Below, piece after piece: positions 13,709 to 64,000 of a DNA stretch of 64,000 bases. Made by a program: the position numbers and the translations under genes. Source of the stretch: Pseudomonadota bacterium (GTDB lineage Bacteria; Pseudomonadota; Gammaproteobacteria; Steroidobacterales; Steroidobacteraceae); contig JAFEDS010000014.1 in NCBI GenBank assembly GCA_018241505.1, forward strand, positions 22,125-86,124, given 5' to 3'. Position 1 is the stretch's first letter, and each line of letters begins with the position of its first letter. The notes under the pieces are model-generated. The model ran no database searches, was not told the origin of the DNA, and was given only the letters and a program-made list of their open reading frames with translations.

Positions 13709-13734
13709 GGCGCGGCGGTTGGCCTTTGCGACGG

Positions 13735-14904
13735 CTACGCAATGAGCGCCCGCAGGCTCGCGAGGTCCGCGTAGCGCGTTGGAATGTCGCGACGGTCGGC
13801 CGCCGTCCGCAGGTCTCTGAGCATCTCCAACGCCCGCAGGAGCACTGACAACGGCGGCCCACTGGCCGTGACTCCCACCAGGTGCCGCGTTTCCATTTCC
13901 TGCGCCGGTTCCTCAATGAACCGCTTGACGAGCGTGTCATGATGCTGCGCGGCCGTTTGCCCGAACAAGTCACACACTTCGAGATACGCCCGGGCGTTCT
14001 GCTGGAACCACTCCGCCTTGGCATGTTCCGGCGCCAGCGCCAGCAACTCATCCAACAGGCTGGTGCGCATCATGCAATCGCGCAGCCGGGCCTGATCGGA
14101 CGGCAGCATGAACAACATCTTGTCCATCAGAAGCTGCGCGTAGTACGGGTTGTTGGCCCGGCACAGTCCCAGCAGCAGGTCGATTTCATTGATGCCGGAG
14201 AAGTCGCCGGCGTTCGCGCCGCGATATTCCTGCCGCCCTACCCTGTAGGGTTTGTAGTAAGGGCGCACCGAGTAGAAGAATCTCTGCACATCGAGCTGCT
14301 CGAACAGCCTGGCATTGAACCGGATGACATCTCTCAACGCGTCCTTCGCCGTCTCAAACAGGACATCCGCCACGGGACTGGACACGCCCAGGAAGGAAAT
14401 CCGGATCAGCGCGTCCGCCACGCGCTGCAACGACAGGATGCCGCGGGTGTTTTCATCAATGAAGAGGAACTCGTCCGGGAGTGAGGTGAAGCTTTTGCGG
14501 AGGCCTGCTTCGGCCTTGTTGTGTGTGGCCAGGTGAGCTGTTGCGAATCGGGGCGCCATGCCGAGCGACGAGCCCACGTGAAGCGCAAGTGACGAGGCCT
14601 CAACAAACGGTGACCGTTCCTCTCGTAGTGGATTGGTCAGCTCGTGGCGCCGGAGTGCCCCGAGGTACATCCCGACGCTCCCCAGAACACCGAATGCATT
14701 GTCGAATCCGTCGCCGGTATTGCCTTCGGCGAGCAACGCGACCACGTGCACGTGCCCCTCGTCGCGTAGCGTTGCCTTCAAAGATTCGCCACACCCCTCC
14801 ACCTGCGCCCGGTCCGCCTGGGCGAAATACAGATTTTCGAGCTCGGTGTTCAGCTCAACGAAGGCGGTCCGGATCCAACGATCAAAACGTTCTGAGTTGT
14901 TCAT
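13735..14904 (-). CDS. PrnB-like (DUF1864) heme protein, orphan
   Basis: A 389-residue protein I recognise as a PrnB-family member. PrnB is the heme enzyme of pyrrolnitrin biosynthesis, structurally related to indoleamine/tryptophan 2,3-dioxygenases, and converts 7-chlorotryptophan to monodechloroaminopyrrolnitrin. Matching landmarks from memory of PrnB: GSVGMYLGALRRHEL (residues 75-89), FTSLPDEFLFID (139-150), FFYSVRPYYKPYRVGRQEY (209-227), and a late helix with H321-H322 where PrnB has its axial heme histidine. No PrnA halogenase, PrnC or PrnD lies nearby, so pyrrolnitrin synthesis is not supported and the real substrate is unknown. ATG at 14904 chosen; the longer frame adds Arg/Pro-rich residues that are unlikely to be coding. 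Confidence 0.75.
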   Translation of the reverse strand: MNNSERFDRWIRTAFVELNTELENLYFAQADRAQVEGCGESLKATLRDEGHVHVVALLAEGNTGDGFDNAFGVLGSVGMYLGALRRHELTNPLREERSPFVEASSLALHVGSSLGMAPRFATAHLATHNKAEAGLRKSFTSLPDEFLFIDENTRGILSLQRVADALIRISFLGVSSPVADVLFETAKDALRDVIRFNARLFEQLDVQRFFYSVRPYYKPYRVGRQEYRGANAGDFSGINEIDLLLGLCRANNPYYAQLLMDKMLFMLPSDQARLRDCMMRTSLLDELLALAPEHAKAEWFQQNARAYLEVCDLFGQTAAQHHDTLVKRFIEEPAQEMETRHLVGVTASGPPLSVLLRALEMLRDLRTAADRRDIPTRYADLASLRALIA

Positions 14905-15131
14905 ACGCGCATTTTGGGGTGGCGGACGCAGAACATTGTTTCGCCCGCGCGTGTGGGGGTGCAAGGTGCAGAACGGGTGGCATCCGCCGGCGCCGGTTGG
15001 AAGCAGATCGTACTATCGGCGCGCGGGTGGGTTGCGGGTGACGGGCGCCAAGGCCGGGCGCGCGGATCGGCGCTTGCGCGAGGCGGCGGGCGCTTGCGCG
15101 GGGCCGGCGGCGCCACACCGCGGCATCAGCG
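14905..15131. other. GC-rich intergenic region with short direct repeats
   Basis: A 227-base gap between the selO stop and the start of the PrnB-like gene, both leftward, so it should hold the promoter of the PrnB-like gene. It is very GC-rich. The 11-mer GCGCTTGCGCG, itself able to form a small hairpin, occurs at 15070-15080 and 15090-15100. I see no convincing sigma-70 promoter, ORF or RNA gene. Confidence 0.4.
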
Positions 15132-47538: not shown

Positions 47539-47641
47539 GCCGCCAAGCGTACACACCCGGGGGCGCCAGCCAAGCAAGAAAATCTATATGCCCCCAGCGA
47601 AAAAAGTCACACGGCGCCGTAGGCGCCTACGCACAGAAGCA

Positions 47642-49545: not shown

Positions 49546-49672
49546 GTGCCAGGGTTCCTATCCCCAGGCGCGATTCTCGGCTGCCGGTCGGGGGAGCCGC
49601 ACTCGATTACGTCACATTGGCAGTGTTCCACCCGTAAGATGTGCCCTAGGTGCAACACAAGGCAGGATCGTA

Positions 49673-52600
49673 ATGAGCGAGGCCTCTTCGGGTGTAGAAG
49701 CTGAGTTCAGGGGCGGACCGCGCAGCGGAGCGCCTCTGCCACCCGGGCCGCTACTGGCTTATGTGCTGAAGGTGGCCGCGGTCGCCTTTATCGCATTGTT
49801 GACCTGGCAATCCCTGAAGGCTCGCTCCGTTGCTGCTGTGCGTGTCACGCACACGCTTCAGGTTTTAGAGCAACTCCAGCAGATCATGTCGCTAGCCAAG
49901 GACGCGGAAACGGGACAGAGAGGTTACCTCCTGACGGGGGAAGACCAGTACCTCGAACCCTTCAACAACGCCAAGTCACAGTTTCCAGAGGAGATGCGCA
50001 AGGCGTTCGACCTGGTCGACGCAGACCCGGTACAGGTGCAGCGGCTCAAGAACCTCGACCAGGCGGTCAAGGACAAGTTTGCAGAACTGGATCAGACGGT
50101 GGCGTTACGCGGCAAGGGTGAAACCTCATCAGCTCTCTCCGTGGTTCGCACCGATAAAGGCAAAGTGCTCATGGACCGCATCCGGTCCGTGGTGACCACC
50201 ATGTCCGCCAGCGAGCGTTCGGCCCTTACGGAAAAGGAGGACGCCTGGCAGCACGCGGAGTTCATCTCGTCCGCGGTGACATTTGGCGGCTCAACCCTCC
50301 TGATCATTCTCATTGGGTCCTCGGCCATCCTTACCTCACGTGACTATCGGGCCCGCCAAACACAGGCCTGGCTGCGTACGGGTCAGATGGCTTTCGGTCA
50401 GCGCATCCAGGGCGAACAACGCCTGGAGCGCCTCGGCGAACACGTCCTGACATTTCTTGGCTCGTTTCTCGGCGCCAAGGTCGGTGCTATGTACATAGCC
50501 GAAGGCGCGGGCGTGTTTCGGCGGTTCGCCGGCTATGCCATGGGGGCCGGCAGCGATGTTGTTCGTGCAGGTGAAGGACTGCTCGGCCAGGCAGCCAGGG
50601 ACAACCGCCCTATCCGTGTCGAGAATGTCCCGGAAGGCTACCTACCCATCACTTCAGCCCTGGGCCATGGTGCTCCGCGTGAAATCCTCATTGCCCCGGC
50701 AACGGTCGATGGCACGGTTCACGCCGTCGTCGAGCTCGGTTTCCTGCGTACGCTGCACACGGAGGACCTGGAGCTTTTGCACCGGGTGTCAGAAGCACTC
50801 GGTGTTGCCATTCGATCTTCCAAGGACCGTACCCGCCTCGAAGAGCTGTTGGAGGAAACCCAGCGCCAGGGTGAAGAGTTGCAGACCCAGCAGGAAGAGC
50901 TGCGTGTCAGCAACGAAGAGTTGGAAGTCCAATCGCGCACCTTGAAGGAGTCGCAGGCACAACTCCAGTCACAGCAGGTGGAGCTGGAGCAGACCAACTC
51001 GCAGTTGGAGGAACAGGCGCAATTGCTCGAGCACCAGAAGGACGACCTGTCGCGGGCCCAGGATGTGCTCACCGAACGGGCGGCGGAGCTCGAGCGGGCC
51101 AACCAGTACAAGAGCGAGTTCCTGGCGAACATGAGCCACGAGCTGCGCACGCCGCTGAATTCATCGCTGATTCTGGCGAAGATCCTGGCCGACAATCGCG
51201 GTGGCAATCTCACAGCCGAACAGATCAAGTACGCGCAGACCATCTCTTCCGCCGGCAACGATCTGCTGGCGATTATCAACGACATCCTCGATCTGTCGAA
51301 AATCGAAGCCGGTAAAGTGGACCTGGTACCCGAAACCGTGGTGGTGGCGCGGATTTTGGACGATCTGTCGCGCACGTTCCAACCGGTCGCGCAGAACAAG
51401 GGCCTCGGCTTCGAGATCGAAGTGGCGCCGGGTGCGCCCGATCGCATCGACACCGATCCGCAGCGGGTGGGCCAGATCCTGAAAAATCTGATTTCCAACG
51501 CCCTGAAGTTCACCGAGGCCGGGACGGTGACAGTGAGAGTGTTTGGGGGTACCAATAGAACGCTGTGCTTTGACGTACACGATACCGGTATTGGCGTGTC
51601 CGAGCATCAACGCGAAATCATTTTCGATGCATTCAGGCAGGCGGATGGCAGTACCCATCGCAAATACGGTGGTACGGGACTCGGGCTCACGATCTCGCGG
51701 GACCTGGCTCGCCTGTTAGGGGGTGACATCAGTGTTGTGAGCGCGCCGGGATCAGGCAGCACGTTCACCCTTACATTGCCGCTCGCCTATACACACAACG
51801 CCGAGGCGCGAGTCAGTCCGCTCGCCGCTGCACCAACAATGCCCGCAAGGTCGGTGGCACCCCCAGCGCCGCAACGGTTGGTGGAAGACGATTCGGAACG
51901 CATTCGAGCCGACTCGCGTTTGATCCTCATCGTGGAAGACGATCCGCCATTCGCCGCCATTTTGCGCGACCTGGCGCACGAGCAGGGTTTTCAGTGTGTC
52001 GTAACTCACACGGCCAACGACGCCCTCGCCGCGGTCGCCACCTACAGGCCGAAAGCCATTCTGCTCGATATGAACCTGCCCGACTATTCGGGTCTCGGTG
52101 TGCTGGACCAGCTCAAGCGCAACCCGCAGATGCGCCACATTCCCGTACACGTGGTATCGGTGGCGGACTACTCGCAGGAGGCCCTCGCAATGGGCGCGGT
52201 GGGCTACGCCATGAAACCCGTGAAGCGCGAGCAGTTGGCGGAAGCGCTCCAGAAGCTGGAGGCAAAATTCTCCCAGGGTGTCCGCAAAGTACTCGTCGTC
52301 GAAGACGATGAGCGCCAACGCGAGAGCATCCGCCATCTGCTGCAGAATGATGAGGTCGAGATCACCGCGGTACGAGCTGCGGCGGACGCCTTGTCACGCC
52401 TGCGCACGACCACTTTTGACTGCATGGTCATGGACCTCAACCTGCCCGACTTCAGCGGCTATGAGCTGTTGCAGAAAATGGCGGAGGCGGATGAAGTCGC
52501 CTTCCCACCGGTCATTGTCTACACCGGCCGCTCACTGACAGGGGATGAGGAACAACGCCTGCGGCGCTTCTCCAAGTCCATCATTGTCAAGGACGCCCGC

Positions 52601-53086
52601 TCGCCCGAGCGCCTGCTCGATGAGGTCACCCTTTTTCTTCACCAGGTTGAAGCGAAGCTGCCGGCCGAACGGCAACGCATGTTGCAGGTCGCGCGCGACC
52701 GCGATGCGGCGCTGGAAGGCCGGCGCATACTCGTGGTGGAAGATGACGTGCGCAACATCTTTGCGTTGTCGAGCCTGTTGGAGCCCAAGGGGGCGGTGAT
52801 TGAAATCGCCCGCAACGGCCGGGAAGCCATCGAATCGCTGACCCGAAACTCGGATGTCGACCTGGTGCTGATGGATATCATGATGCCGGAGATGGATGGG
52901 CTCACGGCCATGCGCGAGATCCGCACCCGGCCGCAATGGAAGAAGCTGCCCATCATCGCCCTCACCGCCAAGGCAATGCGCGATGACCAGGAGAAGTCGC
53001 TGGCCGCCGGCGCCAACGACTACATTGCCAAGCCGCTGGACGTGGAGAAGCTGATGTCCCTGGTGCGTGTCTGGATGCCGAAGTAA
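49673..53086 (+). CDS. CHASE3-GAF hybrid histidine kinase with three receivers
   Basis: A 1137-residue inner-membrane hybrid kinase. TM1 about 28-46, periplasmic CHASE3 bundle with DAETGQRGYLLTGEDQYL, TM2 about 200-222, GAF (about 250-385), a long Gln/Glu-rich coiled coil (about 388-478), HisKA with H489 in NMSHELRTPL, HATPase_c with DTGIGVSE and GGTGLGLTISRDLA, then three receivers with acceptor aspartates near 799, 919 and 1068. The last receiver (MDIMMPEMDG) has the best-conserved site. ATG at 49673 with AGGA upstream. The CheR gene starts eight bases after the stop, and CheB and a REC-kinase follow. Confidence 0.93.
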   Translation: MSEASSGVEAEFRGGPRSGAPLPPGPLLAYVLKVAAVAFIALLTWQSLKARSVAAVRVTHTLQVLEQLQQIMSLAKDAETGQRGYLLTGEDQYLEPFNNAKSQFPEEMRKAFDLVDADPVQVQRLKNLDQAVKDKFAELDQTVALRGKGETSSALSVVRTDKGKVLMDRIRSVVTTMSASERSALTEKEDAWQHAEFISSAVTFGGSTLLIILIGSSAILTSRDYRARQTQAWLRTGQMAFGQRIQGEQRLERLGEHVLTFLGSFLGAKVGAMYIAEGAGVFRRFAGYAMGAGSDVVRAGEGLLGQAARDNRPIRVENVPEGYLPITSALGHGAPREILIAPATVDGTVHAVVELGFLRTLHTEDLELLHRVSEALGVAIRSSKDRTRLEELLEETQRQGEELQTQQEELRVSNEELEVQSRTLKESQAQLQSQQVELEQTNSQLEEQAQLLEHQKDDLSRAQDVLTERAAELERANQYKSEFLANMSHELRTPLNSSLILAKILADNRGGNLTAEQIKYAQTISSAGNDLLAIINDILDLSKIEAGKVDLVPETVVVARILDDLSRTFQPVAQNKGLGFEIEVAPGAPDRIDTDPQRVGQILKNLISNALKFTEAGTVTVRVFGGTNRTLCFDVHDTGIGVSEHQREIIFDAFRQADGSTHRKYGGTGLGLTISRDLARLLGGDISVVSAPGSGSTFTLTLPLAYTHNAEARVSPLAAAPTMPARSVAPPAPQRLVEDDSERIRADSRLILIVEDDPPFAAILRDLAHEQGFQCVVTHTANDALAAVATYRPKAILLDMNLPDYSGLGVLDQLKRNPQMRHIPVHVVSVADYSQEALAMGAVGYAMKPVKREQLAEALQKLEAKFSQGVRKVLVVEDDERQRESIRHLLQNDEVEITAVRAAADALSRLRTTTFDCMVMDLNLPDFSGYELLQKMAEADEVAFPPVIVYTGRSLTGDEEQRLRRFSKSIIVKDARSPERLLDEVTLFLHQVEAKLPAERQRMLQVARDRDAALEGRRILVVEDDVRNIFALSSLLEPKGAVIEIARNGREAIESLTRNSDVDLVLMDIMMPEMDGLTAMREIRTRPQWKKLPIIALTAKAMRDDQEKSLAAGANDYIAKPLDVEKLMSLVRVWMPK

Positions 53087-53093
53087 GGACGAC

Positions 53094-53921
53094 GTGGCTG
53101 CCGCTGACATCGACATAGAGCTGCATCTGTTGATTGATGCGATCTACCTGAAGTATCACTACGATTTCAGGCGGTATGCGCCAGCGTCCCTGAAGCGGCG
53201 GCTCACCGCGGCCATGTCGCGTTTCAACTGCGGGACGTTCTCCGAGCTCCAGAACCGGGTGCTGCACGATCCGACCCTGTTTCCCCTGTTGCTGGACTAC
53301 CTCACCGTGCCGGTGAGCGAAATGTTCCGCGACCCGAGCTACTACCGATCGTTGCGCACCACCGTCATTCCCTTGCTGCGCACCTACCCGTCGCTCAAGA
53401 TCTGGGTCGCCGGCTGCAGCACCGGCGAAGAAGTCTATTCGCTTGCCATCCTGTTGCGCGAGGAAGGCCTGTTGGAGCGCAGCCTGATCTACGCAACCGA
53501 CATCAACCCGAGCGTGCTGCAGAAGGCCACGGCCGGGGTGTATGAGGTCGACCGCATTGCCGGCTTCACTGAAGCCCATCGCAAATCCGGCAGCAACACC
53601 TCGCTGTCGGATTACTACACGGCCGCCTATGGCCGGGCGGTCTTCGACAAGTCATTGCGCGAGCGCATCGTGTTTTCCGATCACAGCCTCGCCACGGACA
53701 GCGTGTTTGCCGAGGTGCAACTGGTTTCCTGCCGCAATGTGCTCATCTACTTCAACCGCGACCTGCAGGACCGCGCCATCGGCTTGTTTCGCGATGCGCT
53801 GTGCCGCAAGGGCTTTCTGGGAATCGGCTCCAAGGAGTCGCTGCGCTTCAGTGCGCATCACGATTCCTTCAGCGAGTTGGTAGCCAATGATCGCATCTAC
53901 CAGAAGCGGGACGTCCTGTGA
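53094..53921 (+). CDS. CheR-type protein-glutamate methyltransferase
   Basis: A 275-residue SAM-dependent methyltransferase. The N-terminal helical domain (RYAPASLKRRLTAAMSRF) precedes the SAM-binding motif WVAGCSTGEEVYSLAILL and the catalytic-domain strand LVSCRNVLIYFN, with SKESLRFSAHHDSF at the C-terminus. This matches CheR. The GTG at 53094 sits behind AAGGA. No MCP, CheA or CheW lies in the window, so the methylated target is unknown. The stop overlaps the start of the CheB gene (GTGA). Confidence 0.93.
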   Translation: MAAADIDIELHLLIDAIYLKYHYDFRRYAPASLKRRLTAAMSRFNCGTFSELQNRVLHDPTLFPLLLDYLTVPVSEMFRDPSYYRSLRTTVIPLLRTYPSLKIWVAGCSTGEEVYSLAILLREEGLLERSLIYATDINPSVLQKATAGVYEVDRIAGFTEAHRKSGSNTSLSDYYTAAYGRAVFDKSLRERIVFSDHSLATDSVFAEVQLVSCRNVLIYFNRDLQDRAIGLFRDALCRKGFLGIGSKESLRFSAHHDSFSELVANDRIYQKRDVL

Positions 53922-54502
53922 TCGCCGCGGACAGCCTGCGCGGACGGATCGAGGCCATTGTCGTCGGTGCCTCCGCCGGCGGCGTGGAGGCCCTGGGCCT
54001 GATTCTTCCCGCCCTCCCCGCCGCGTTTCGTCCCTCCCTGCTGATTGTCCTGCACCTGCCGCGGGAGCGGCCGAGCCTCCTCGTGGAGATATACGAAAAG
54101 CGCTGTGCCCTGCCCATCCGCGAAGCCGACGACAAGGAACCGATCGAGCCGGGCACGGTGTATTTCGCGCCACCGGATTATCATATGTTAGTTGAGCGGA
54201 ACCGGCAGATTGCCCTCTCCACGGAAGAGCCGGTGCACTACTCCAGGCCTTCGGTGGATGTCCTGTTTGAGTCCGCCGCGGATGTGTACGGCAACAGGCT
54301 GTTGGGAGTCATCCTGACAGGCGCCAACCAGGACGGGGCGGCCGGCCTGCACGCGATCCACCGGGCCGGCGGTGTCACCGTGGTCCAGCAACCGGACAGC
54401 GCCAAAGTACCGCTCATGATAGTGTCCGCGTTGCAGCGCAATCCGGCGGATTTTGTCCTGTCGCTGCCCGATATCGCGGCGCTGCTCGTGGGCCTCGCTT
54501 GA
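53918..54502 (+). CDS. Stand-alone CheB methylesterase domain protein
   Basis: A 194-residue protein-glutamate methylesterase without the usual N-terminal receiver. Catalytic triad S19 in VGASAGGVEAL, H46 in HLPRER and D139 in TGANQDGA. Because the receiver is missing, it cannot be activated by direct CheA-type phosphorylation; control may come from the hybrid kinase or REC-kinase next door. GTG start overlaps the CheR stop by four bases. It reverses CheR methylation on an unknown target. Confidence 0.93.
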   Translation: MIAADSLRGRIEAIVVGASAGGVEALGLILPALPAAFRPSLLIVLHLPRERPSLLVEIYEKRCALPIREADDKEPIEPGTVYFAPPDYHMLVERNRQIALSTEEPVHYSRPSVDVLFESAADVYGNRLLGVILTGANQDGAAGLHAIHRAGGVTVVQQPDSAKVPLMIVSALQRNPADFVLSLPDIAALLVGLA

Positions 54503-54524
54503 CCGACGCCCGGCCGTGCTCGAA

Positions 54525-55616
54525 ATGGAGAGTTCAGTGAAGTGCCTGCTCGTTGATGACCTGGAGGAAAACCTGCTCGCGCTGGCGGCCTTGCTGCGGC
54601 GGCCGGACCTGGAGATCCTCAGCGCGCGCTCCGGCCGGGAGGCCCTGGAGCTGCTGCTGGTTCATGATGTCGCCTTGGCCCTCGTGGATGTGCAGATGCC
54701 GGAAATGGATGGCTTCGAGCTGGCCGAGCTCATGCGCGGCAGCGAGCGCACGCGCCAGGTACCGATTATTTTCGTGACCGCCGGGGCCCGCGATCAGCAT
54801 CGGCTGTTCAAGGGTTACGAAAGCGGCGCCGTGGACTTCCTGTTCAAGCCCATTGAGGCGCACATTCTGCAGAACAAGGCGGATGTGTTCTTTCAACTGC
54901 ACCGGCACAAACAGCAATTGGCCCGCGAGCTGCGGGAGAAGACCGAGACTCTGCGCCTGAACGAGATGCTCACGGCGGTGTTGAGTCACGACCTGCGCAG
55001 CCCCCTCAATGCCGTGCTGACATCGGCCGTGCTGATCCAACGCCGTTCCACGGAACAGCCGGTGTTGGACACCGCGGCCCGGATTCTCTCGAGCGGCAAG
55101 CGCATGAGCCGCATGATCGAGGACATGCTCGACATGGCACGCGCCCGCCTCGCCGGCGGCATTCCGATCAAGCGCGAGGCCGCCGACCTCGGCGCGCTGC
55201 TGGATCGCGTGGTGGGCGAAGTCCAGGCCGCCTGGCCGGAGCGCCGTATCGAAGTGCACAAGTCGGGCAATCTCAACGGCAACTGGGACGGCGAGCGCCT
55301 GGCACAGGTCACCGCCAACCTGTTGGGTAATGCGCTCCAACACGGGGATGAAGCCGACCGCGTGCAGGTCGATGTCGATGCCGGCAGAGCCGACGCCGTC
55401 ATCATTGCGGTGACGAACTCCGGCACCATTCCGGCCGACCTGCTACCGCAGCTATTTGATCCCTTCCGCGGCACTCAGCGCCAGGCTGGCCGTGCCGAAG
55501 GACTCGGGCTGGGGCTGTACATTGTGCAGCAGATCATTCTCGCGCACGGCGGCAGCGTCGATGTGCAGTCCGGCGAAAACAACCGGACCACCTTCACAGT
55601 CTCGATTCCGCGCTAG
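54525..55616 (+). CDS. REC-HisKA-HATPase histidine kinase
   Basis: A 363-residue soluble kinase with an N-terminal receiver (D55 in [11 protein letters not shown], lysine in FLFKPIE), a short coiled linker, HisKA with H155 in [10 protein letters not shown] and an HATPase_c domain ([22 protein letters not shown]). The N box is less canonical, and the G1 box reads TNSGT rather than DxGxG, so ATP binding may be atypical. ATG 54525 or GTG 54537 (behind GGAGAG) are both possible starts. It closes the hybrid kinase-CheR-CheB unit and its last four bases overlap the convergent aminotransferase gene. Confidence 0.9.
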
Positions 55617-56869
55617 AGCGTCTTCAAGACTTGCGCAAAGCGCTGGATTTCGGCAACCGTGTTGTAATGCACGAGCGACACCCGGACCATCCCGGTTTCC
55701 TTTGCCAGCCCCATGCGCTGCATCAGCCGCGGCGCATACATATGGCCGTCGCGGATGCCGATTCCGGCACGCGCGGCGGTTTCCGTCACGGCCTGCGGCA
55801 ACACGCCCGGTATGTTGAAACAGATCGTGGGCACGCGCTCGCCGATCCGCGCCTCCGAATCGACGCCATAGATGACGGCTTTGCGGTCCTTCAACACACG
55901 CAGCAACTCAATGGACAACGTCTGCTCGTAAGCCCGGATGGCGCCCATGGCAAACCGGGTATCTTCCGCCAGGGTGCCGCTCTTGCCTGACAGCATCCGT
56001 CCCACCTGTGCCAGGTAGTTGATGGCCGCATCCATGCCCGCGACGTTTTCATAAATAAATGTGCCGGCCTCAATTTTTCCCGGCGGCTCATCCGGAATGA
56101 AGTCCTCCCGGAAAGTGGGCAATGACATCAACAGGTCGTAGCGCCCGTACATGAATCCCATGTGCGGCGCAAAGATCTTATAGCCGGAGCAAACGAGGTA
56201 GTCGCAGTCGAACGCCTGCACGTCCATCTGACCGTGCGGGCCGTAGTGCACACTGTCCAGGAAGATCTCCGCGCCCGCGGCGTGCGCGGCATCAGCGGCA
56301 GCACGCACATCAACAATGGAGCCAAGCGCATTGGATGTCAGAGTGCACGCGACCAGGCGCGTGCGAGAATTCAGTAACGGCTTCAGGTCATCGACGTGCA
56401 GGCAGCCGTCGTCACGCATCTTCCACCAGACAAATTTCGCGCCCATGCGCTCGAGAACCAGCCAGGTGGCGATGTTGGCTTCGTGATCGAGGTCGGTGAT
56501 GATGATTTCATTGCGCTTGTCGAGCGTCATCCCGATGGCGAGGCTGATGATGCGGATGAAGGAAGTTGCGTTCATGCCGAAGGCAATTTCTTCCGGCCGC
56601 TTCGCGTTGATGAAGGCGGCGACACTGGCACGCGCCCGTGCGATCGTCTCATCAACCGCCATGCTCTGACGGTAGCGGCCGCCGCGCTGCACGTTGTGAT
56701 CGATCAGGTGGAAGTTGACCGCGTCCAACACCATCTGCGGCACCTGGGCGCCGGCAGCGTTGTCGAAAAAAATCCCGGCCCCCGCGTGTTGCAACGCCGG
56801 AAATTGCTTGCGCAGGGTTTCGGCTGGAAACGCCGCCGAGGAGCCAGCCATCCGTGCGTTCATCATCAT
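55613..56869 (-). CDS. Class V PLP enzyme, VC1184-type cysteine-desulfurase-like
   Basis: A 418-residue fold-type I PLP protein. N-terminal [18 protein letters not shown] and [11 protein letters not shown] match the VC1184 subfamily; PLP ligands are D205 and H208, with Schiff-base K231 in [11 protein letters not shown]. Where SufS-like desulfurases have RTGHHC, this protein reads RDGHMY (373-378), so the persulfide cysteine is missing and sulfur transfer is doubtful. Reaction unknown: a lyase, epimerase or aminotransferase is possible. It is the last gene of the leftward cluster, 46 bases after the other class V gene. The ATG run at its start leaves a few codons of uncertainty. Confidence 0.87.
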
Positions 56870-56915
56870 TCTCCGTTGAGGTTTGAATGAATGATACTGG
56901 ACAGCCCGGCGCTCT

Positions 56916-58064
56916 CTAAGGACGAAATTCGGCCCGGTGGCCTAGAAGTGCCTGCACGATCGCATCGACATCCTTTTCATTGTTATAGAAATGAAAAGTT
57001 GCCCGCAGATTATCGTCCCGGAACGAGGTGACAATATCCTGCTCCGTCAGCCTCGCAAACAACTGCGCCACCTGGTTCGCCCGGACACAGATCATCGGCC
57101 CATGGCGCTCGTCCTCGCGCGGCGTAATGCTCGGCCAGTCGATTTCCTGGAGCCGATCCATGTACAACCGCGTGAGATACCTGACCCGTTCCTCGATCAC
57201 ATCCGTGCCGACCTCGAGGATGATCTTCAGCCCCGCCTCCACCGCGTAGCAATTGACCACGGCCGGCGTTCCGGCCTCGAAGCGCCGCGCCGTCGGTGAC
57301 GGACGGTTCGCGGTAATGTCCATGGCGGTGATGTTCGCCTGCGCGAACCAACCCGAGTTGGTGGGGGTCAGCTCCGGAATCAACTCCTGGCGCGCATACA
57401 GGAAGCCGAGGCCCGCGGTTCCCAACAGGTATTTCAGCATCCCGCCCACGGCGAAATCGACATCGAGCTTCTTGACATCGACGGTCATGGAGCCGACGGC
57501 CTGGTAGCAATCCAGCATCACCTTCGCGCCGCGCGCATGGGCGAGCTCGACGATCCCGGCAATATCGAGCTTCGCGCCGTTGCGGAAACAGACGTGAGTG
57601 ACTGCAACAATCTGCGTCTCTTCGTCGATGGCCTGCTCGAAATGCTCCAGGGGAATGTAGCCATTCGCGTCCCGATGCACGTGGACGACGCGGGCGCCGC
57701 GCAACTCCTGCGCGTGCCAGATCTGGGCGTTGGTGGGAAACTCAAAGTCGCTGATCACGACTTTGTTGCGCTTGCCGGTAAAGTTGCAGGCGCTGGCCAG
57801 GGCGTTGATTCCGGCGGACGCGGAGGCGGTCACGGCGATTTCATCCGGCTGCGCGCGCAACACCTGCGCCATGAGCGACCGCACCGCCTCGTTCTTCATC
57901 ACCCAAACATCCCAGTTCGCGCCGACGAGCAACCGGTCATCCATGTAGTTGTTGATTGCCTCCTTCACACTGTCCGCGAGCGCACAGTAGGAGCCGCTGT
58001 TCAGATACGTCTTGCGCTCCAGCACGGGAAAACGGCTGCGCAGCCCTTTGAAGTCGGTAATCAT
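56916..58064 (-). CDS. Class V PLP enzyme (isopenicillin-epimerase/kynureninase-like)
   Basis: A 382-residue PLP enzyme, different from its neighbour. Landmarks: [30 protein letters not shown] (phosphate binding), D185 and Q188 in [10 protein letters not shown], and K211 in [19 protein letters not shown]. The layout fits the class V group containing kynureninase and CefD-like epimerases; the exact reaction cannot be read. The ATG at 58064 overlaps the permease stop as ATGA, giving translational coupling, so its substrate is probably what that permease imports. Confidence 0.87.
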
Positions 58065-59425
58065 TTGTTTACTCTCGCCCATACGAAATACGCTGCCGAG
58101 ATCAGCAGCATCCAGGGAATGCCGAACTCCCAGGAGACGTTGTAGTCACTGCTCAACCCCATGGTGATGAGCACCGCTGCCAGCATCAGCAAGCCGAATA
58201 TCTGCATCCAGGGAAACAGCGGCATGCGCACAGGCAGCTTGCTGGCATCATGGTGCCGCCGGAAACTGAGGTGACTGACCAGGATCATCATCCAGACCAC
58301 GATGGCCGCGAACAGGGCAACACCCAGCAGGTAGTTGTAGGCACGCGGCGTGTAAATCGACACCCCGGCGGCCATGAGAATGCACGCCCCCGAGGTCAGG
58401 ATGGCAGCAACCGGCGTGCCGTTCCTGCTCAGCTTGCCGAGAAATTGGGGCGCATAACGGCCCCGCGACAGCGAGAACAACATCCGGGAACACAGGTACA
58501 CATTGGTGTTCATGCTGGACAAGGCGGCGCTGATCACCACGAAGTTCATGATTCCCGCGGCATGGCGTATTCCGGAGTGTGCGAACACGCTGACGAACGG
58601 ACTCTGCGCGACCACTTTCACGCCGGTCGCCGTCCAAGGAACGGTTGTCACAATGATCAACAGCGCCAGCAGGTAGAAGGAGAACAGGCGGAACACCATG
58701 GTGCGCAAGGCCGCGGGAATGGCCACCTGGGGGTTCTGCGCCTCACCCGAGGTGACGGCAATCACTTCGATGCCATTGAACGAGAAGATGCCGACAATGA
58801 CCGCCATCCACACGCCACTGAAACCGTTCGGCAGGAACCCGCCCGGCAAGCCGGTCAGGTTGTGAAAGCCGGTGGCGGGCCGGCCGATACCAAAAATCGT
58901 GACCGCGCCCAGGATGATAAACAACACAATCGCGGTGACCTTGATGGTCGAGAACCAGAATTCGATGGTGCCGAAGTTGTTGACTGAGCGGGAGTTGAAA
59001 TACAGCAGGATCAGGCAGAATCCCAAGGACCACATCCACACCGGGACGTCCGGGAACCAGAATGTCATGTACAGGCCCGCGGCGACCGCCTCGCCGCCGA
59101 TCGCAATGACCTGGGCGATCCAGTAGGTGTAACGCACTACGAACCCGGCCCACGGGTTGAGGTAGGTCTCTGCGTAGGTGCCGAAAGAGCCGGCGGTGGG
59201 ATGCACCACCGCCATTTCGGACAGGCTGAAAACCATCACCAGCGCCACGGCACCCGCCAGGGCGTAGCTGAGCACGACCGCGGGCCCCGCCGATCCGATG
59301 GCGATGCCACTGCCCATGAAAAGACCCGTACCAATGGCGCCCCCGAGGCCGATCATGACGATCTGCGCCTTGGAGAGCCCGCGGTTCAGACCGCCTTCGC
59401 GTTCGCTGATGGAGGATACGTTCAT
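58061..59425 (-). CDS. APC family amino acid permease
   Basis: A 454-residue 12-TM inner-membrane transporter of the amino-acid transporter (AAT/ProY/GabP-like) branch. Signatures: SKAQIVMIGLGGAIGTGLFMGSG in TM1, MAVVHPTAGSFGTYAETYLN, FSFNGIEVIAVTSGEAQNP and TNVYLCSRMLFSLSRG. Length is typical. It should import an amino acid or amino-acid-like compound. A long hairpin lies just upstream of its ATG, and its stop overlaps the next gene. It is the transport step of the TonB/cupin/PLP cluster. Confidence 0.93.
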   Translation of the reverse strand: MNVSSISEREGGLNRGLSKAQIVMIGLGGAIGTGLFMGSGIAIGSAGPAVVLSYALAGAVALVMVFSLSEMAVVHPTAGSFGTYAETYLNPWAGFVVRYTYWIAQVIAIGGEAVAAGLYMTFWFPDVPVWMWSLGFCLILLYFNSRSVNNFGTIEFWFSTIKVTAIVLFIILGAVTIFGIGRPATGFHNLTGLPGGFLPNGFSGVWMAVIVGIFSFNGIEVIAVTSGEAQNPQVAIPAALRTMVFRLFSFYLLALLIIVTTVPWTATGVKVVAQSPFVSVFAHSGIRHAAGIMNFVVISAALSSMNTNVYLCSRMLFSLSRGRYAPQFLGKLSRNGTPVAAILTSGACILMAAGVSIYTPRAYNYLLGVALFAAIVVWMMILVSHLSFRRHHDASKLPVRMPLFPWMQIFGLLMLAAVLITMGLSSDYNVSWEFGIPWMLLISAAYFVWARVNK

Positions 59426-59431
59426 AAAGTG

Positions 59432-59493
59432 TCCGGACCTGTACCCGGATCGGTCGCGTTCCGCGTCACGACCGAAACCGGGTACAGGCCGGA
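59432..59493. promoter_or_regulatory. Long inverted repeat between TonB receptor and permease
   Basis: Arms 59432-59456 and 59469-59493 pair over about 23 bp (5 bp, one bulged base, 11 bp containing CCTGTACCCGG, a small internal loop, 7 bp) with a 12-base loop. It fills most of the 89-bp gap between the receptor stop and permease start. No T-tract follows in either direction. It may attenuate transcription or protect the mRNA so that receptor and permease are made at different levels, or act as a protein-binding site. Confidence 0.7.
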
Positions 59494-59514
59494 TATCGAC
59501 AAGGTACTAGAAAC

Positions 59515-61806
59515 TCAGAACTTGCGGGTGACTGTTATCCCAACGGTCCGGGGCCGCACGGTGAGCAGCGCGTGCGGGTCCTGAGTCGAGTTGATCGCCG
59601 ACACTTCCGCCCGTTTATCCGTGATGTTGCGGGCGAACGCCGCCACCGTCCACGGACCATTGATGACTCCGAGCCGCAGATTGACCAGGGTGTACGGCTT
59701 CAACACGAGGTTGAAGTCCTTGTTGGAGGCGAAGTAGGCATCCACGGAATCACGATAGGTCACATCGACCGCGCCCAGGCCTTCCCAGTCGCCGGAGATC
59801 GGCCGGGTGTAGTTCAAACCAATGTTGAACTGCATTTTCGGCACGTTCGGAATGTCATCTCCAGTACGGCCCAACGTATTGTTCAACGCGTACTGATCGG
59901 CCGAGGCGCCCTCCACGAGGAACGCATCCTGGTACGAGCCGGCCAACGTCGCCGTCAAATACTCCATCGGCCGGGCCGTCAGCTCGAACTCAACGCCCTT
60001 CACGTGCGCGCGGCCCGCGTTCCCGAGGTAGACGAACGCCGCATCCGCCGTGGTTTCCTGCACCTGGATGTTGTCCCAGCGGATGAAATAACCGTCCACC
60101 TGGTATTCGAGGCTGTTGTTGAACAACCGGCCCTTGAGGCCCGCCTCGAAATTGGTCAGTGAGTCGGGCGCGTAGGCCTTCGGAATCGGCTCGAACGGCT
60201 CGCTGACGGCGTTCAAGCCGCCGCTGCGGAAACCGGTCGAGATGGTTTCATAGGCCAGCACGGCGTCACTGAACTTGTAGCTGATGTTCTCCTTCCAGGT
60301 GATCTTGTTGAAGGTCTGTTGCGGGTCGGGGATCGGTACCAGGTTCGGCGCATCAGGCGGAAAGCCGCCGAACGGATGGGTCTGAGTCTGCACGCCGTTC
60401 AAAGTCTCGGTGAAGTAGCGGATGCCCGCGATGGCCGTCAACGCATCGGTGGCCTTCCAGGTCACTTCGCCGAAACCGGCCCATTGGGTGGTGGTACGCG
60501 AGTCGGTGCGGCCGAAGAAGGTGTTGCCATTCGGGCTGCCCAGCGCGTCGTCGCTGTTGGCTGAGCTGAAGGGACCATTCACCAGGCCGAAGTCATTTGT
60601 TTTGATGACCTCGACCGCCAGGTCCTGCTTCTCGTGCTCGCGATAGCCGCCGATGACAAAGTTCACCGGCAAATCGAGCTGGCTCGCATAGCGCAACTCG
60701 CTGGAATTGACGCGCCGCGTACGCGGTTCCAGCGTCTCGGCCGGAATCGGCACATCGAAAGACACCAGGATGGGCGTCGAATCGAAGGTGAAGCCGGTCG
60801 TGCGGTTGAACTGGTTGCTGGTCGCTGTCACGGTGCCATGGTGAGTGTCGTAGGTCACCGTTGCGCCGAAGACCTGCAGATTGTCAGTCCAGGGGCTTTG
60901 CGTCACGTCCGTGTTGCACAAGTCGCAACCCTGAACCGGCGCAATCGGTCCGCCGTTGAACGCGGTGATGCCGGCGGGCGTCCAGCGGGACGAGCCTCCC
61001 GACTTTTCGGTCTGCTTGGTGTAGTTGGCATCGATCGTCAGCTCTTCGAACGGCTGATAGCGGACAGCCACCCTTGCGCCGCCGACGTCGTCGTCATTGA
61101 CGCCCTTGATCAGACCCACGGTACCGACGCGCGTCTGATCCACATAACCTGCGTTGTAGAGCTTCCAGCCAACGGCCCTGACAGCCAACACTCCATCAAT
61201 GATGGGCAGATTGACCGCACCGTTGAAATTGTAGTTTTCCTTCGGGGTATGGCTCGTGTTCGAGTACTCGGCGGTGCCATAACCTTCGACGGTGCTGAGA
61301 TTGGGCAGCTTCGGCATGAATCGAATGGTGCCGCTCATGGAGCTGGCGCCGTACAGAGTGCCCTGAGGTCCGCGCAGTACCTCGACGCGATCGAGGTCGT
61401 ACAGGCGGATGTCGGTTTCGAATCCGCCGCCATCATCAGCGTTCGAGCCGCTGATCACCGCTTCGCCATAGTAGACGCCGGTTGTGGACGCACCGGTTGA
61501 GTTGATACCGCGGATGACGTACTTCTTGTCGCCGGGACCCAGGTCCTGGATCGACAGGCCGGGAATATCGCCGGCAATGTCCATGATTTCAGCAGCGCCA
61601 TCCTTCTGCAGGGCATCGCCCGAGAGCGCCTGGATCGACGCCGGTGTGTCTAACACCTTGGTTGCGTTCAGCTTGTTGGCCGTCACCACGACTTCCGTGA
61701 GCTCGGCGCTGTCGGAAGCGGGTGCATCCGCGGCCACCGCGGCGCCGGCGGACAGGATACTGGCAACAGAAATCGCGATGATTCGTGAGCCGTTGTTGTT
61801 TGGCAC
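59515..61806 (-). CDS. TonB-dependent receptor
   Basis: A 763-residue outer-membrane receptor. Signal peptide to about residue 26 (AAVAA), TonB-box-like LTEVVVTANK, plug domain with YVIRGINSTGASTTGVYYGE and RVEVLRGPQGTLYGASSMSGTIR, then a beta-barrel ending in the canonical VGITVTRKF with terminal Phe. The type is the common receptor of nutrient-scavenging proteobacteria (iron complexes, sterols, oligosaccharides, peptides). A C-x2-C pair sits in an extracellular loop (GCDLCN). It lies 37 bases after the CDGSH-cupin gene and should import the cluster's substrate across the outer membrane. Confidence 0.94.
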   Translation of the reverse strand: MPNNNGSRIIAISVASILSAGAAVAADAPASDSAELTEVVVTANKLNATKVLDTPASIQALSGDALQKDGAAEIMDIAGDIPGLSIQDLGPGDKKYVIRGINSTGASTTGVYYGEAVISGSNADDGGGFETDIRLYDLDRVEVLRGPQGTLYGASSMSGTIRFMPKLPNLSTVEGYGTAEYSNTSHTPKENYNFNGAVNLPIIDGVLAVRAVGWKLYNAGYVDQTRVGTVGLIKGVNDDDVGGARVAVRYQPFEELTIDANYTKQTEKSGGSSRWTPAGITAFNGGPIAPVQGCDLCNTDVTQSPWTDNLQVFGATVTYDTHHGTVTATSNQFNRTTGFTFDSTPILVSFDVPIPAETLEPRTRRVNSSELRYASQLDLPVNFVIGGYREHEKQDLAVEVIKTNDFGLVNGPFSSANSDDALGSPNGNTFFGRTDSRTTTQWAGFGEVTWKATDALTAIAGIRYFTETLNGVQTQTHPFGGFPPDAPNLVPIPDPQQTFNKITWKENISYKFSDAVLAYETISTGFRSGGLNAVSEPFEPIPKAYAPDSLTNFEAGLKGRLFNNSLEYQVDGYFIRWDNIQVQETTADAAFVYLGNAGRAHVKGVEFELTARPMEYLTATLAGSYQDAFLVEGASADQYALNNTLGRTGDDIPNVPKMQFNIGLNYTRPISGDWEGLGAVDVTYRDSVDAYFASNKDFNLVLKPYTLVNLRLGVINGPWTVAAFARNITDKRAEVSAINSTQDPHALLTVRPRTVGITVTRKF

Positions 61807-61843
61807 GATTTTCAGACCCCTGATTGTGTGACGCCCGCGGCGT

Positions 61844-62902
61844 CTAGTCGTAGTAATTGATACTCGGATTGTCGCCGGGGCAGATCACCCCGACCACATC
61901 GATGCCATCCGCGGAGGTTGCTTCCAGCGAATGCAGTTGCTTGCGTGGCAGAAAGATCACGTCCCCGGCCGTGACGCGCGCCTTCTTGTTTTCCGTCCAC
62001 ATGTAGCCTTCCCCCGACAACACGATGATCGCCTCTTCATACAGGTGGCGATGCGGTGCGGCCTTGGAGGGTGGGATGTGGCCGATGAACTGAGTGATGA
62101 CATTGGAGCCGATGCGCTTGTCGACCAGGACCTGGAAGTAGCGCGGACCCATCTCGGTGCGTTGCTGCGGATCGACTGCCACGACCCGCTCGGGACACTG
62201 GGCATCGAAGTTGGTGGGCATCTCGTCCAACCAACTGATCTCCCCCAGCGGACAGGCGAGCACAAACACCTTGAGTGTCTGGCCGGCAGCGGCTGAGAGT
62301 TGGATTGCTTCCGATGGACGGATGTAGACGCCGTCGGTCGCCTTGACCGGCAGCGCGGTGCCGGAAATGGTCACGCTGCCCGACCCGGCACCAATGAAAA
62401 GAATGACATCGCGGGATCCCAGGCTGAATACCGGCGAGGGCTCGCCAGAGACCTCCATCAAAAGCTGCGTCTGATACAAGGCGCCCAACTCCGCGGACAC
62501 CATGTAGCAGTAGCGCAGGGAGCCGCGGGTCTCCATGGCAGCCAGGCCGGACGAGAAGACGTAGCAGGTACCATTCAGCAGGGCACGGGCACCGTCGCGC
62601 TCGGTCACCACTGGGATATCCCGGTTCGCGGCACTGAGCGGGTCGTCGAGGGGCGAACCACCCGGAAGGTTCGTATGCGCGCCATCGCAGAACGGGCCAT
62701 TCCGTGTGTGTTTACAGCCACAGAACAGCAGCTCGTCGTCCTGGGCAGCCTTGAACTTCATGGGTTCGAAGCCCGTGCCCTTATGCGAGCCGTCGCAAAA
62801 AGGCTGTTTTGCGGAACGTCCGCAGCTACACCAGAAATACGTCCGGCCGGCTTTTACGTTCACCAGACATGGTTTCGGGCGCGCAACAACTGGAGTGTTC
62901 AT
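61844..62902 (-). CDS. CDGSH iron-sulfur domain-bicupin fusion protein
   Basis: A 352-residue protein joining two short CDGSH [2Fe-2S] motifs to a cupin region. Cluster 1 ligands: C25, C27, C36, H40 (WCSCG, FCDGSH). Cluster 2: C61, C63, C72, H76 (FCGCK, FCDGAH). From about residue 95 two cupin halves follow. The C-terminal one keeps a full metal site, H284, H286, E290 and H324 (PHRHLYEEAIIVLSGEGY, QLHSLEA); the N-terminal half has no obvious ligands. It may be a redox- or oxygen-using enzyme whose FeS part supplies electrons, or a sensor. First structural gene after TetR; ATG at 62902. Exact reaction unknown. Confidence 0.87.
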   Translation of the reverse strand: MNTPVVARPKPCLVNVKAGRTYFWCSCGRSAKQPFCDGSHKGTGFEPMKFKAAQDDELLFCGCKHTRNGPFCDGAHTNLPGGSPLDDPLSAANRDIPVVTERDGARALLNGTCYVFSSGLAAMETRGSLRYCYMVSAELGALYQTQLLMEVSGEPSPVFSLGSRDVILFIGAGSGSVTISGTALPVKATDGVYIRPSEAIQLSAAAGQTLKVFVLACPLGEISWLDEMPTNFDAQCPERVVAVDPQQRTEMGPRYFQVLVDKRIGSNVITQFIGHIPPSKAAPHRHLYEEAIIVLSGEGYMWTENKKARVTAGDVIFLPRKQLHSLEATSADGIDVVGVICPGDNPSINYYD

Positions 62903-62969
62903 TGCGGGGTACTCTCCCCAACGGACAAGTCCTTGTACAGACCCGCTTTAGGCTGAAGGGCCTATTTTA

Positions 62970-63064
62970 TTGGCGCGGCACTGGCCGCGCGGAGCCGGGG
63001 CTGCGTTTCCGCCACCAAAAAGCGTGGTTTTTGGGGGGGCGCCCAGCCTGGCTGCTGGGTGCGC
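62970..63064. repeat. Two-hairpin dispersed repeat, copy 2, plus extra hairpin
   Basis: Inverted relative to copy 1 at 47642. GCGCGGC / GCCGCGC hairpin around 62973-62990 (27 identical bases 62970-62996), then CCAAAAA / TTTTTGG (63015-63021 / 63028-63034, loop GCGTGG). A third imperfect hairpin, GCGCCCAGC with GCTGGGTGCGC, spans 63039-63064 next to the tetR stop. The element fills the 168-bp gap between tetR and the CDGSH-cupin gene, where the operon promoter is also expected. Confidence 0.75.
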
Positions 63065-63070
63065 GGCGCG

Positions 63071-63751
63071 TCAGACCGCGGCCAAGCGGGCTTCGGCTTC
63101 GGCAGTTGCCTGGGCAGCGAGGCGCTCGATCGTGTGATAGGACTCGCGCGTGATTTGCTGCAGATCGGCGCAGAAGTAGGGTCGCAGGACCTCCAGTGTC
63201 TCGGCATAGCCTTCCAGGATGGCTTCCACCGTGACCTCCCGGTCGTGGTAATCCAGGTAGTTCAGCCAGTTCTCATTGACGATCCAAGTCACATCGATGA
63301 TGGAACGTAGCCGCTTCGGATCGGGCGGAAAGCGCATGTGACCGCCCGCCTGCAACGCCAACATGAACCTCTCCAGGTCACGCAGCCGCCTCTCCCGGTT
63401 GTCTGCGTATCGTTTGCGAAGCAGAGGGTCCTGCCGCAGGAGGTCTCCCATCTCCCGGTAGAAAAACCGGTACTTGAGTATGAGCTGTAATTGGCGCACG
63501 AACATCGTAGCCATGTGCTCCAGCGTCGGGGCCAGGTGGTCGCGGTACCAACCGGTATCCATCTCGTTGATGGCCTGTTGGAACAGGGCGTAGATGATTT
63601 CCTGCTTGTTGCGGAAGTGATATTGCAGGTTGCCCTTGCTGATGCCACACCGTTCGGCAATACGATTGGAGGAGACCGCGGCACTGCCGTGCTCATTGAA
63701 GAGCTCCAGTGCTGCTTGCAGGATTCGGAACTGCGTGGCGCGCGTAGCCAT
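63071..63751 (-). CDS. TetR family transcriptional regulator
   Basis: A 226-residue repressor-type regulator. The N-terminal HTH is SSNRIAERCGISKGNLQYHF (about residues 26-45); the rest is an all-helical ligand-binding domain, with an Ala/Glu-rich end. The YHFRNKQEI segment is the standard TetR helix after the HTH. ATG at 63751. It is divergent from a partial acyl-CoA dehydrogenase gene (99 bp between starts) and upstream of the CDGSH-cupin cluster, so it could control both. Ligand unknown. Confidence 0.94.
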   Translation of the reverse strand: MATRATQFRILQAALELFNEHGSAAVSSNRIAERCGISKGNLQYHFRNKQEIIYALFQQAINEMDTGWYRDHLAPTLEHMATMFVRQLQLILKYRFFYREMGDLLRQDPLLRKRYADNRERRLRDLERFMLALQAGGHMRFPPDPKRLRSIIDVTWIVNENWLNYLDYHDREVTVEAILEGYAETLEVLRPYFCADLQQITRESYHTIERLAAQATAEAEARLAAV

Positions 63752-63850
63752 ACGCCCTCATTTTCCCCAACGCCCCCCGCGCCGCGCAAGCAGCAGTGTG
63801 GTATCTTTAGGTCTAAACTAATTGGCCCGGCATTATTGAGGAGGGGTGAA

Positions 63851-64000
63851 GTGAACTCCCTGGATCTGTTCGACGTTCGCAGCGCACTCACTGAAGAAGA
63901 GCGCATGGTGCAGGATTCGGTGGCACGGCTGGTGGACGAGCGGATCCTGCCCATCATCCAAAAATGCTTTGAGGAACATCGCTTCCCGCGCGAGCTGGTC
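63851..64000 (+). CDS. Acyl-CoA dehydrogenase family protein, N-terminal fragment
   Basis: The first 50 codons of a gene continuing past the right edge. The peptide (TEEERMVQDSVARLVDERIL, then PIIQKCFEEHRFPRELV) matches the N-terminal helices of acyl-CoA dehydrogenases, with a glutaryl-CoA-dehydrogenase-like flavour. GTG start behind a strong GGAGGGG. Divergent from tetR. The remaining FAD-binding and catalytic parts are not visible, so the substrate class stays open. Confidence 0.8.
   Translation, partial: MNSLDLFDVRSALTEEERMVQDSVARLVDERILPIIQKCFEEHRFPRELV

Follow-up and report, generated by a model that had tools for sequence, protein, structure and literature searches.

A conserved gene cluster around a CDGSH-bicupin protein in Steroidobacteraceae and its possible part in degrading an indolic amino acid through isatin

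Excerpts of PMC9613470 describe iad loci that degrade indole-3-acetic acid (IAA) to anthranilate by way of isatin and isatinic acid, and give iorB/iotA as markers exclusive to such loci. One known anthranilate route, according to an excerpt of PMC6221969, is that of the 2-aminobenzoyl-CoA monooxygenase/reductase. Excerpts of other papers report that heme enzymes of the PrnB superfamily can make oxindoles, as with MarE (PMC11904535), and other monooxygenation products (PMC12921851; PMC11791213). We analysed a 64,000-nucleotide stretch of DNA (the window; G000:C5:22125-86124) from a Steroidobacteraceae genome assembled to 7.9 Mb in 46 contigs with 5.67% contamination. According to its list of open reading frames (ORFs), the window carries a cluster of six genes, all on the minus strand at 55613-63751, which includes a CDGSH-bicupin gene.

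Like the iad-type IAA locus of Variovorax and Bradyrhizobium (PMC9613470, in excerpt), the island to which this cluster is tied has iorB/iotA and an isatin-isatinate branch, here with an isatin hydrolase. Unlike it, the island has the CDGSH-bicupin, proteins resembling pyridoxal phosphate (PLP) lyases, an amino-acid permease and a TonB receptor instead, and this gene set points to an amino acid, not IAA. With the kynurenine pathway the island shares a heme enzyme of the same superfamily and class V PLP lyase-like proteins, whereas the canonical tryptophan 2,3-dioxygenase (TDO) and kynureninase (KynU) are encoded separately. On our preferred reading, which we hold to be an evenly balanced proposition, the cluster forms one half of an accessory catabolic island, the half for uptake and the upper pathway. 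The substrate would be an amino acid with an indole group, in the likeliest case tryptophan or an oxidised form of it, broken down first to isatin and alanine and then, from isatin, to 2-aminobenzoyl-CoA.

Pfam named the six products as TetR, CDGSH (two stretches) with cupin, TonB receptor, AA_permease and two unlike Aminotran_5 proteins (PLP1 and PLP2), the families given by the original prediction. The spacers that it listed also stood, as measured from the ORF ends: 37 bp between bicupin and receptor, 89 bp with a hairpin between receptor and permease, and 46 bp between PLP1 and PLP2. The permease and PLP1 genes overlap by ATGA when 58064 is taken as the PLP1 start; its ORF as listed extends to 58082. 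The gap between tetR and the bicupin gene is 168 bp.

The cluster recurs in relatives, most of its proteins being ~48-88% identical. We compared 39 bicupin neighbourhoods of up to 20 kb each, our own included and several cut by contig ends. Two of them (G058 and G064) hold cupin-only homologues, four were taken from a scan of genome contigs (G558 as L022, L023, L019, L016), and 11 of the 44 order-level matches are left out (G457, G468, G475, G485, G491, G556, G623, G719, G722, G739, G761). Near the bicupin gene lay the receptor in 26 neighbourhoods, PLP1 in 21, tetR in 14 and PLP2 in 13, the receptor matches being merely 28-35% identical in some. An amino-acid carrier was found in 26, of the APC type in 17 and the NSS type in nine, never both. 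Receptor, permease, PLP1, PLP2 and tetR were all present in 10 of the 39. The scatter without synteny that would have spoken against a common function was thus not what we found, and the synteny, together with a palindrome at the tetR-bicupin junction, upholds the proposed single uptake-and-conversion unit. The PLP1 and bicupin genes share a strand, with 42-84 bp between match edges, in five genomes of families f7 and f15; in G454 (f2) they are 26 bp apart on opposite strands. Because of these counts and of this proximity in other families, bicupin, PLP1 and an amino-acid carrier are the widest conserved core. Other neighbours were Tat-cyclase (10), IorB (7), IorA (6), isatin hydrolase (6), FMO (6), PrnB (4), OCD (3) and ApbA (2).

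Co-occurrence was counted in 60 genomes, our own included. For the Fisher tests, full bicupins and close isatin hydrolases were those with E <= 1e-90, which drops the cupin-only G058 and all shorter matches for the former, and G039, G033 and weak second copies for the latter; for PrnB the default threshold applied, and the count takes in a fragment in G028. The genomes are kin, so that the p values overstate independence. A close isatin hydrolase occurred in all 13 full-bicupin genomes and in 1 of the 47 others (p 2.7e-12; totals 13 bicupin, 14 isatin hydrolase, 13 both). Within the window's genus the figures were 12/12 with and 1/25 without bicupin (p 7e-9), and in G047, of family f12, the pairing persists in another family. 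PLP1 (19 genomes) and PrnB (18) shared 15 genomes, PrnB being present in 15/19 with PLP1 against 3/41 without it (p 4.6e-8), and the two genes adjoin in G037 and G052. Bicupin and PrnB overlapped in 9 of 13 (p 0.001).

The second half of the system lies outside the six genes of the original prediction: the PrnB-family gene is in the same window and the isatin operon elsewhere. The PrnB-family product matches PF08933 at 547.6 bits (gathering cut-off 27; E 2.9e-164) and, in the PDB, SO4414 (E 1e-145) and PrnB (E 2.6e-12). By sequence it is like the PrnB/SO4414 heme-dependent aromatic oxygenases; its surroundings, unlike theirs, are catabolic. PrnB and bicupin genes share one contig in the window, G003, G031, G034 and G036, and in the last three the contig also holds the isatin operon, which consists of isatin hydrolase, IorAB and a PRK08255-type flavoenzyme. 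In G031 and G034 the order is PrnB, acyl-CoA dehydrogenase (ACAD), RidA, ACAD2, further genes, SDR and FMO, then isatin hydrolase, IorA, IorB and tetR, followed by Tat-cyclase, bicupin, receptor, APC permease, PLP1, PLP2 and ApbA; G034 has two extra genes between tetR and Tat-cyclase, and the island of G036 is without ApbA. In G618 and G659 the bicupin and isatin hydrolase genes are on one strand, with 34 and 69 bp between match edges. Upstream of tetR, several relatives carry IorA/IorB, an isatin hydrolase-type cyclase (5nmp, E 2.9e-103), a PRK08255 salicylyl-CoA 5-hydroxylase/oxidoreductase (1237 bits, cut-off 1078), an SDR and a PRK08258 hydratase. The hint at an amino-acid-like aromatic substrate, with tryptophan among those suggested, therefore gained weight from the tie of isatin hydrolase, IorAB and the PrnB-family heme enzyme to the cluster.

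In our own genome the isatin operon is on contig C28, adjoining the C-terminal part of an acyl-CoA dehydrogenase, and IorA/IorB homologues, including the iorB/iotA marker of iad-type pathways, are present. The C28 isatin hydrolase matches 5nnb (E 1e-99), with the HxGTHxD...H metal site and the WxW motif aligned; those of relatives show the same motifs. The Mn site and the Trp-x-Trp pocket are named in the excerpted text of PMC6117287. Like the isatin hydrolases of Labrenzia and Ralstonia (5nna, 5nnb, 5nmp), from which we noticed no difference in sequence, the C28 product can be assigned with confidence as an isatin hydrolase. At L039, IorA scores 274 bits, under the IOR_alpha cut-off of 651, and IorB is above its subfamily cut-off. 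Contig C5 stops at window base 64000, inside a divergent acyl-CoA dehydrogenase gene. That C28 follows C5 is a guess, because two stretches of our own genome, on C28 and C15, match such an acyl-CoA dehydrogenase from the same residue onward; a join through this gene was set aside.

From the gene content, synteny, co-occurrence, the relatives' shared promoter elements, the conserved active-site residues and the identity of the isatin hydrolase, all obtained directly, we infer the substrate, the reaction of each upper-pathway protein, that of IorAB on isatinate and that of the PRK08255 flavoenzyme on 2-aminobenzoyl-CoA. The TonB receptor in the outer membrane and the APC permease in the inner membrane (where other families have an NSS-type carrier) would import the indolic amino acid. 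The PrnB-family heme enzyme, the CDGSH-bicupin or both would oxygenate the indole ring to an oxindole or 3-hydroxy-oxindole alanine, and a PLP lyase (PLP1, plus PLP2 in the window's genus) could split the Cbeta-Cgamma bond by retro-aldol to isatin and alanine. This conversion of 3-hydroxy-oxindolyl-alanine would be the missing link from an indolic amino acid to the isatin operon. Isatin hydrolase would then give isatinate, which IorAB would decarboxylate oxidatively to 2-aminobenzoyl-CoA, releasing CO2. Degradation of the CoA-bound ring may be completed by the PRK08255-type flavoenzyme together with the SDR, the hydratase and acyl-CoA dehydrogenases. The lower pathway, from isatin onward, is of a known kind. 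No description of the upper part, the CDGSH-bicupin with a kynureninase-like lyase, was found in the literature searched, most subscription journals being outside that search. If true, the pathway would be an enzymatic route in these bacteria from an indolic amino acid to isatin, a bioactive compound, and would suggest a function for the CDGSH-bicupin fusion, the SO4414-type PrnB homologues and the kynureninase-like PLP family.

Table 1. Features of the window discussed in the text (window coordinates)
Feature	Position	Strand	Basis or remark
TetR-family regulator	63071..63751	-	Pfam TetR_N + PF13972; near bicupin in 14/39 neighbourhoods
tetR/CDGSH-bicupin spacer with palindrome	62903..63070	.	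Pattern scan
CDGSH-bicupin	61844..62902	-	Pfam, alignment, predicted fold
TonB-dependent outer-membrane receptor	59515..61806	-	Pfam Plug + beta-barrel
Intergenic hairpin	59426..59514	-	Folding
APC-family amino-acid permease	58061..59425	-	Pfam AA_permease, E 7e-106
PLP1, class V (fold type I) enzyme	56916..58064	-	Start placed at ATGA overlap
PLP2, class V enzyme	55613..56869	-	Nearest PDB relative by sequence: FGM3
Acyl-CoA dehydrogenase, divergent, first 50 codons	63851..64000	+	Cut by contig end
PrnB/IDO-superfamily (heme-dependent aromatic oxygenase) gene, proposed pathway member	13735..14964	-	PF08933; likely start near 14904
Rieske oxygenase, glycine-betaine/stachydrine demethylase type	46279-47577	-	Under GbcA cut-off; PDB 4qup, E 1e-92

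Two short elements were found near these genes, their expectations being derived from mononucleotide shuffles. The palindrome TTAGGC-N6-GCCTAA occurs at the tetR-bicupin junction of relatives, in 12 of 25 loci besides the window (0.05 expected per 64 kb). It is at or overlapping the last tetR codons in five loci, 18-44 bp past tetR in six and before the bicupin gene in L023; in L018 the bicupin gene is only reached 7.7 kb further on. The window copy has one mismatch and lies 106 bp after tetR, and part of it doubles as a plus-strand terminator-like site. The second element, CTTGAGRTGTCAANTA (up to 2 mismatches; 0.1 expected per 64 kb), is at the isatin-operon promoter in relatives and in our own genome. 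In six genomes (L018, L019, L020, L025, L034, L039) it recurs 18-112 bp before tetR. Because it stands at both promoters, there is evidence that the isatin operon and the tetR-led cluster may be co-regulated in some relatives, a statement that does not extend to the window's genome.

The 89-bp gap between receptor and permease folds at -49 kcal/mol (z -5.9; none of 200 shuffles as stable). The inverted-repeat finder, at its settings, returned nothing in this gap although folding gave the hairpin, and the hairpin was not among the terminator-like sites of the window scan; possibly it affects expression of the genes past the receptor. A structured RNA of known family was discarded, Rfam giving no match in 55000-64000. 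Scans for sigma-70 promoters and terminators gave site numbers no higher than in shuffles.

The CDGSH-bicupin has tandem [2Fe-2S] motifs of the NEET form C-x-C-x8-C-x3-H (C25 C27 C36 H40 and C61 C63 C72 H76; PF09360 in two stretches), followed by two cupin barrels, of which Pfam names only the C-terminal one, the other being visible in the predicted fold. The conserved metal ligands are in the C-terminal barrel only: H284 H286 E290 H324, a three-His-one-Glu site H-x-H-x3-E-x33-H kept in 20/20 aligned rows, where the N-terminal barrel has no invariant His. The CDGSH ligands are kept in at least 90% of rows, and one row (L041) is without the domain. Two barrels and a three-His-one-Glu site, as in bicupin dioxygenases, are thus present in the predicted fold, with ligands in one barrel. 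Mean pLDDT of the model is 79.5; the barrels are modelled well, the CDGSH part poorly. Like quercetinase and other bicupins, the protein has the bicupin fold, and like CISD3-type proteins it has two CDGSH motifs; unlike either, it fuses both parts. No NCBIfam model matched at E <= 1e-5, and the literature search for a CDGSH and cupin fusion yielded no relevant paper. Matches were found in 44 of 396 order-level genomes (counting our own and a few that are cupin-only or partial) and, class-wide, in 2 of 369, our own included, so the protein is rare outside the order in that sample.

The most far-reaching interpretation, which we put forward with low confidence, is that the CDGSH-bicupin represents an oxygenase class of its own, new and self-contained. 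In it, the tandem CDGSH [2Fe-2S] clusters would feed electrons to the single cupin metal, as an analogue of a Rieske oxygenase made from two unrelated folds; it would replace the Rieske dioxygenase of the iad locus and, with the kynureninase-like lyase, open a way from tryptophan to isatin that is separate from the kynurenine pathway. If true, a Rieske-like electron chain assembled out of a NEET domain plus a cupin would come as a surprise for iron-sulfur enzymology. A search for the Rieske motif (iadDE type) found none in ORFs of at least 250 codons of the genus's isatin loci (L029, L037, L039, L132-L139, L141, L173-L175), the rest of the genomes not being searched. We consider it rather doubtful, but a little less so, that the protein is no oxygenase at all, but a metal- or redox-responsive accessory or a cupin hydrolase or isomerase of the ureidoglycine-aminohydrolase kind. 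Its fold matches proteins of several activities: Foldseek ranked quercetinase first with YlbA-type proteins close behind, and TMt was 0.74-0.78 for three YlbA-type DUF861 proteins and 0.57-0.63 for quercetinase. The poor modelling of the CDGSH part and the cupin-only homologues beside a sodium-symporter gene (L041, L142) also suit such a function, which is harder to square with the invariant metal site and the close tie to an oxidised-indole pathway.

Two further observations concern bicupin homologues. Distant ones (L041, L142, L040) lie near sodium-symporter-type genes, two of them being without the CDGSH domain (NCBIfam for L040 and L041, by eye for L142). In G002 (L030), a 53% identical bicupin gene at a contig end is beside trimethylamine-methyltransferase-like and sarcosine/dimethylglycine-oxidase-like genes.

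The pocket of PLP1 is kynureninase-like, Trp60, Phe115, Trp245 and Arg360 (numbered on the longer, 388-residue ORF to 58082) being common with KynU, and the Pfam KYNU_C cut-off is passed. However, the kynureninase Tyr before the Schiff-base Lys, present in 5/5 KynU, is Leu or Met in 22/22 PLP1 (the KynU set being the 5 of 12 loci whose ORF a simple motif filter picked up), Gln stands at two KynU His positions, and the score against TIGR01814 is 106.3 bits for a cut-off of 246.4.

PLP2 passes solely the hypothetical-equivalog model TIGR01976, named cysteine desulfurase-like (NCBIfam). The C-terminal loop of cysteine desulfurases carries the motif GHxC. In PLP2 the Cys place holds Tyr378 in 17/17 (GHxY) and in PLP1 the loop is gapped, so that neither enzyme has the desulfurase Cys. 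Catabolism of a sulfur or selenium amino acid was rejected on this ground, despite the SufS-like predicted fold of PLP1, and the sulfur compound that the original prediction had thought of as a possible substrate found no support. Among the class V PLP enzymes FGM3 and UstD, PLP2 is nearest to FGM3 by sequence (E 1e-59, best PDB relative; UstD, E 4e-41). Both act in fungal peptide biosynthesis, a different context from that of PLP2. Tyr230-Lys231 and the stacking-position His129 are each kept in 17/17 PLP2, which was also aligned with FGM3. An excerpt of PMC10367076 describes FGM3 as a PLP enzyme whose substrate, in a retro-aldol reaction, is the hydroxy-arginine cyclised by GntC, with fusaoctaxin as the fungal peptide setting; Tyr225 of that paper may or may not be the same Tyr. 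Homologues of PLP2 with at least 65% identity were found only in the window's genus and L023, those of four other genera being 35-40% identical.

Several results weigh against the isatin route proposed above. In the window's genome the PrnB gene is 41 kb from the cluster, the isatin operon is on another contig, CTTGAGRTGTCAANTA was not found in the window, and Tat-cyclase matches are merely partial (34-44%). The lyase activity of PLP1 is uncertain because the kynureninase Tyr is missing, and its predicted structure comes closest to SufS folds. Of the 13 bicupin genomes, four lack PrnB (three of these are 90% complete or less) and two lack PLP1. In G047, PLP1, PLP2 and PrnB gave no match at the thresholds used, and the isatin hydrolase gene is near a Rieske-type ring-hydroxylating oxygenase gene (a Rieske-motif ORF in locus L140); an IAA-type route could explain this case. 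Four other f12 bicupin neighbourhoods have no isatin genes within ~10 kb. Six genomes (G012, G022, G023, G029, G037 and G052) have PrnB and PLP1 but neither a full bicupin nor a close isatin hydrolase, and the contig-end bicupin of G002 keeps the company of betaine-type genes. The divergent acyl-CoA dehydrogenase, to which a special role with the carbon skeleton had been given, looks general and adds nothing specific to the pathway, because homologues with E <= 1e-100 are in 54 of the 60 genomes. It was accordingly dropped as a pathway-specific gene, though a homologue is near PrnB in G031, G034, G037 and G052, preceding PrnB-PLP1 in the latter two.

The six genomes with PrnB and PLP1 but no full bicupin bear on another explanation, a divergent second kynurenine route in which the PrnB-family enzyme would be a tryptophan 2,3-dioxygenase, the cyclase-family hydrolase a formamidase and PLP1/PLP2 a kynureninase giving anthranilate and alanine, the isatin genes being mere neighbours. 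We regard it as unlikely for the cluster, and possible for the PrnB-PLP1 genomes that lack the bicupin. PrnB belongs to the IDO/TDO superfamily (PMC11791213, in excerpt; PDB match), PLP1 keeps the four KynU pocket residues, PrnB and PLP1 are side by side in two of the six, and L023 has a cyclase-PLP2-PrnB run. Set against this are the low TIGR01814 score and the absence of Tyr-Lys from all PLP1, the DHxGTQ/DQxGTQ motif that replaces HxGTH in Tat-cyclase, and the isatin hydrolase of all 13 bicupin genomes, which would stay unexplained. Canonical enzymes are also already there: TDO is over the family cut-off in 51 and KynU in 50 of the 60 genomes, our own having both. A simple replacement of the kynurenine pathway was rejected on these counts, and because both enzymes are present in most relatives and in our own genome, the cluster is a route additional to that pathway. 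Returning to the isatin route, the Tat-cyclase, a cyclase-family protein found with the cluster (L017, L018, L020, L021, L022, L023, L039) and having a twin-arginine-like start in most loci, is probably exported.

It is very unlikely that an N-methylated or otherwise modified indolic amino acid (e.g. tryptophan betaine) is imported and demethylated before the isatin branch: the window has a betaine-demethylase-type Rieske gene 8 kb away from PLP2, G005 has one close to the cluster, and G002 has its betaine-type neighbours, but among 41 sequences scanned for the motif that Rieske type was confined to the window and its close relative G005, and the best PDB matches of the window protein are 4qup and 3vca, which we take to be proline-betaine demethylase and a relative of it. 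A further regular-expression match to the Rieske motif is in L036. The ORF after the window Rieske gene (45316-46275) resembles a proline iminopeptidase by eye.

For the APC permease, none of the 25 NCBIfam models listed reached its cut-off. In genus g289 and some others (L199, L200, L201, L203, L095) the cluster adds an ornithine-cyclodeaminase-like gene, 66-69% identical to the L095 copy, and the same loci hold threonine-dehydratase-like genes, both named by eye. Contigs of three genomes break inside the acyl-CoA dehydrogenase near the cluster (window 63851-64000, L032, L036, L132), perhaps an effect of a repeat or of mixed strains. Genes on either side of the PrnB-family gene (10119-16730) resemble, by eye, prolyl oligopeptidase, a second amino-acid permease and SelO; at L017/L198, PLP1 likewise has beside it a SelO gene (Pfam) and one distantly like prolyl oligopeptidase (27%). 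Beside PLP2, the plus strand at 49343-55616 has a run of ORFs that resemble, by eye, a hybrid sensor kinase, CheR-type methyltransferase, CheB-type methylesterase and response-regulator kinase.

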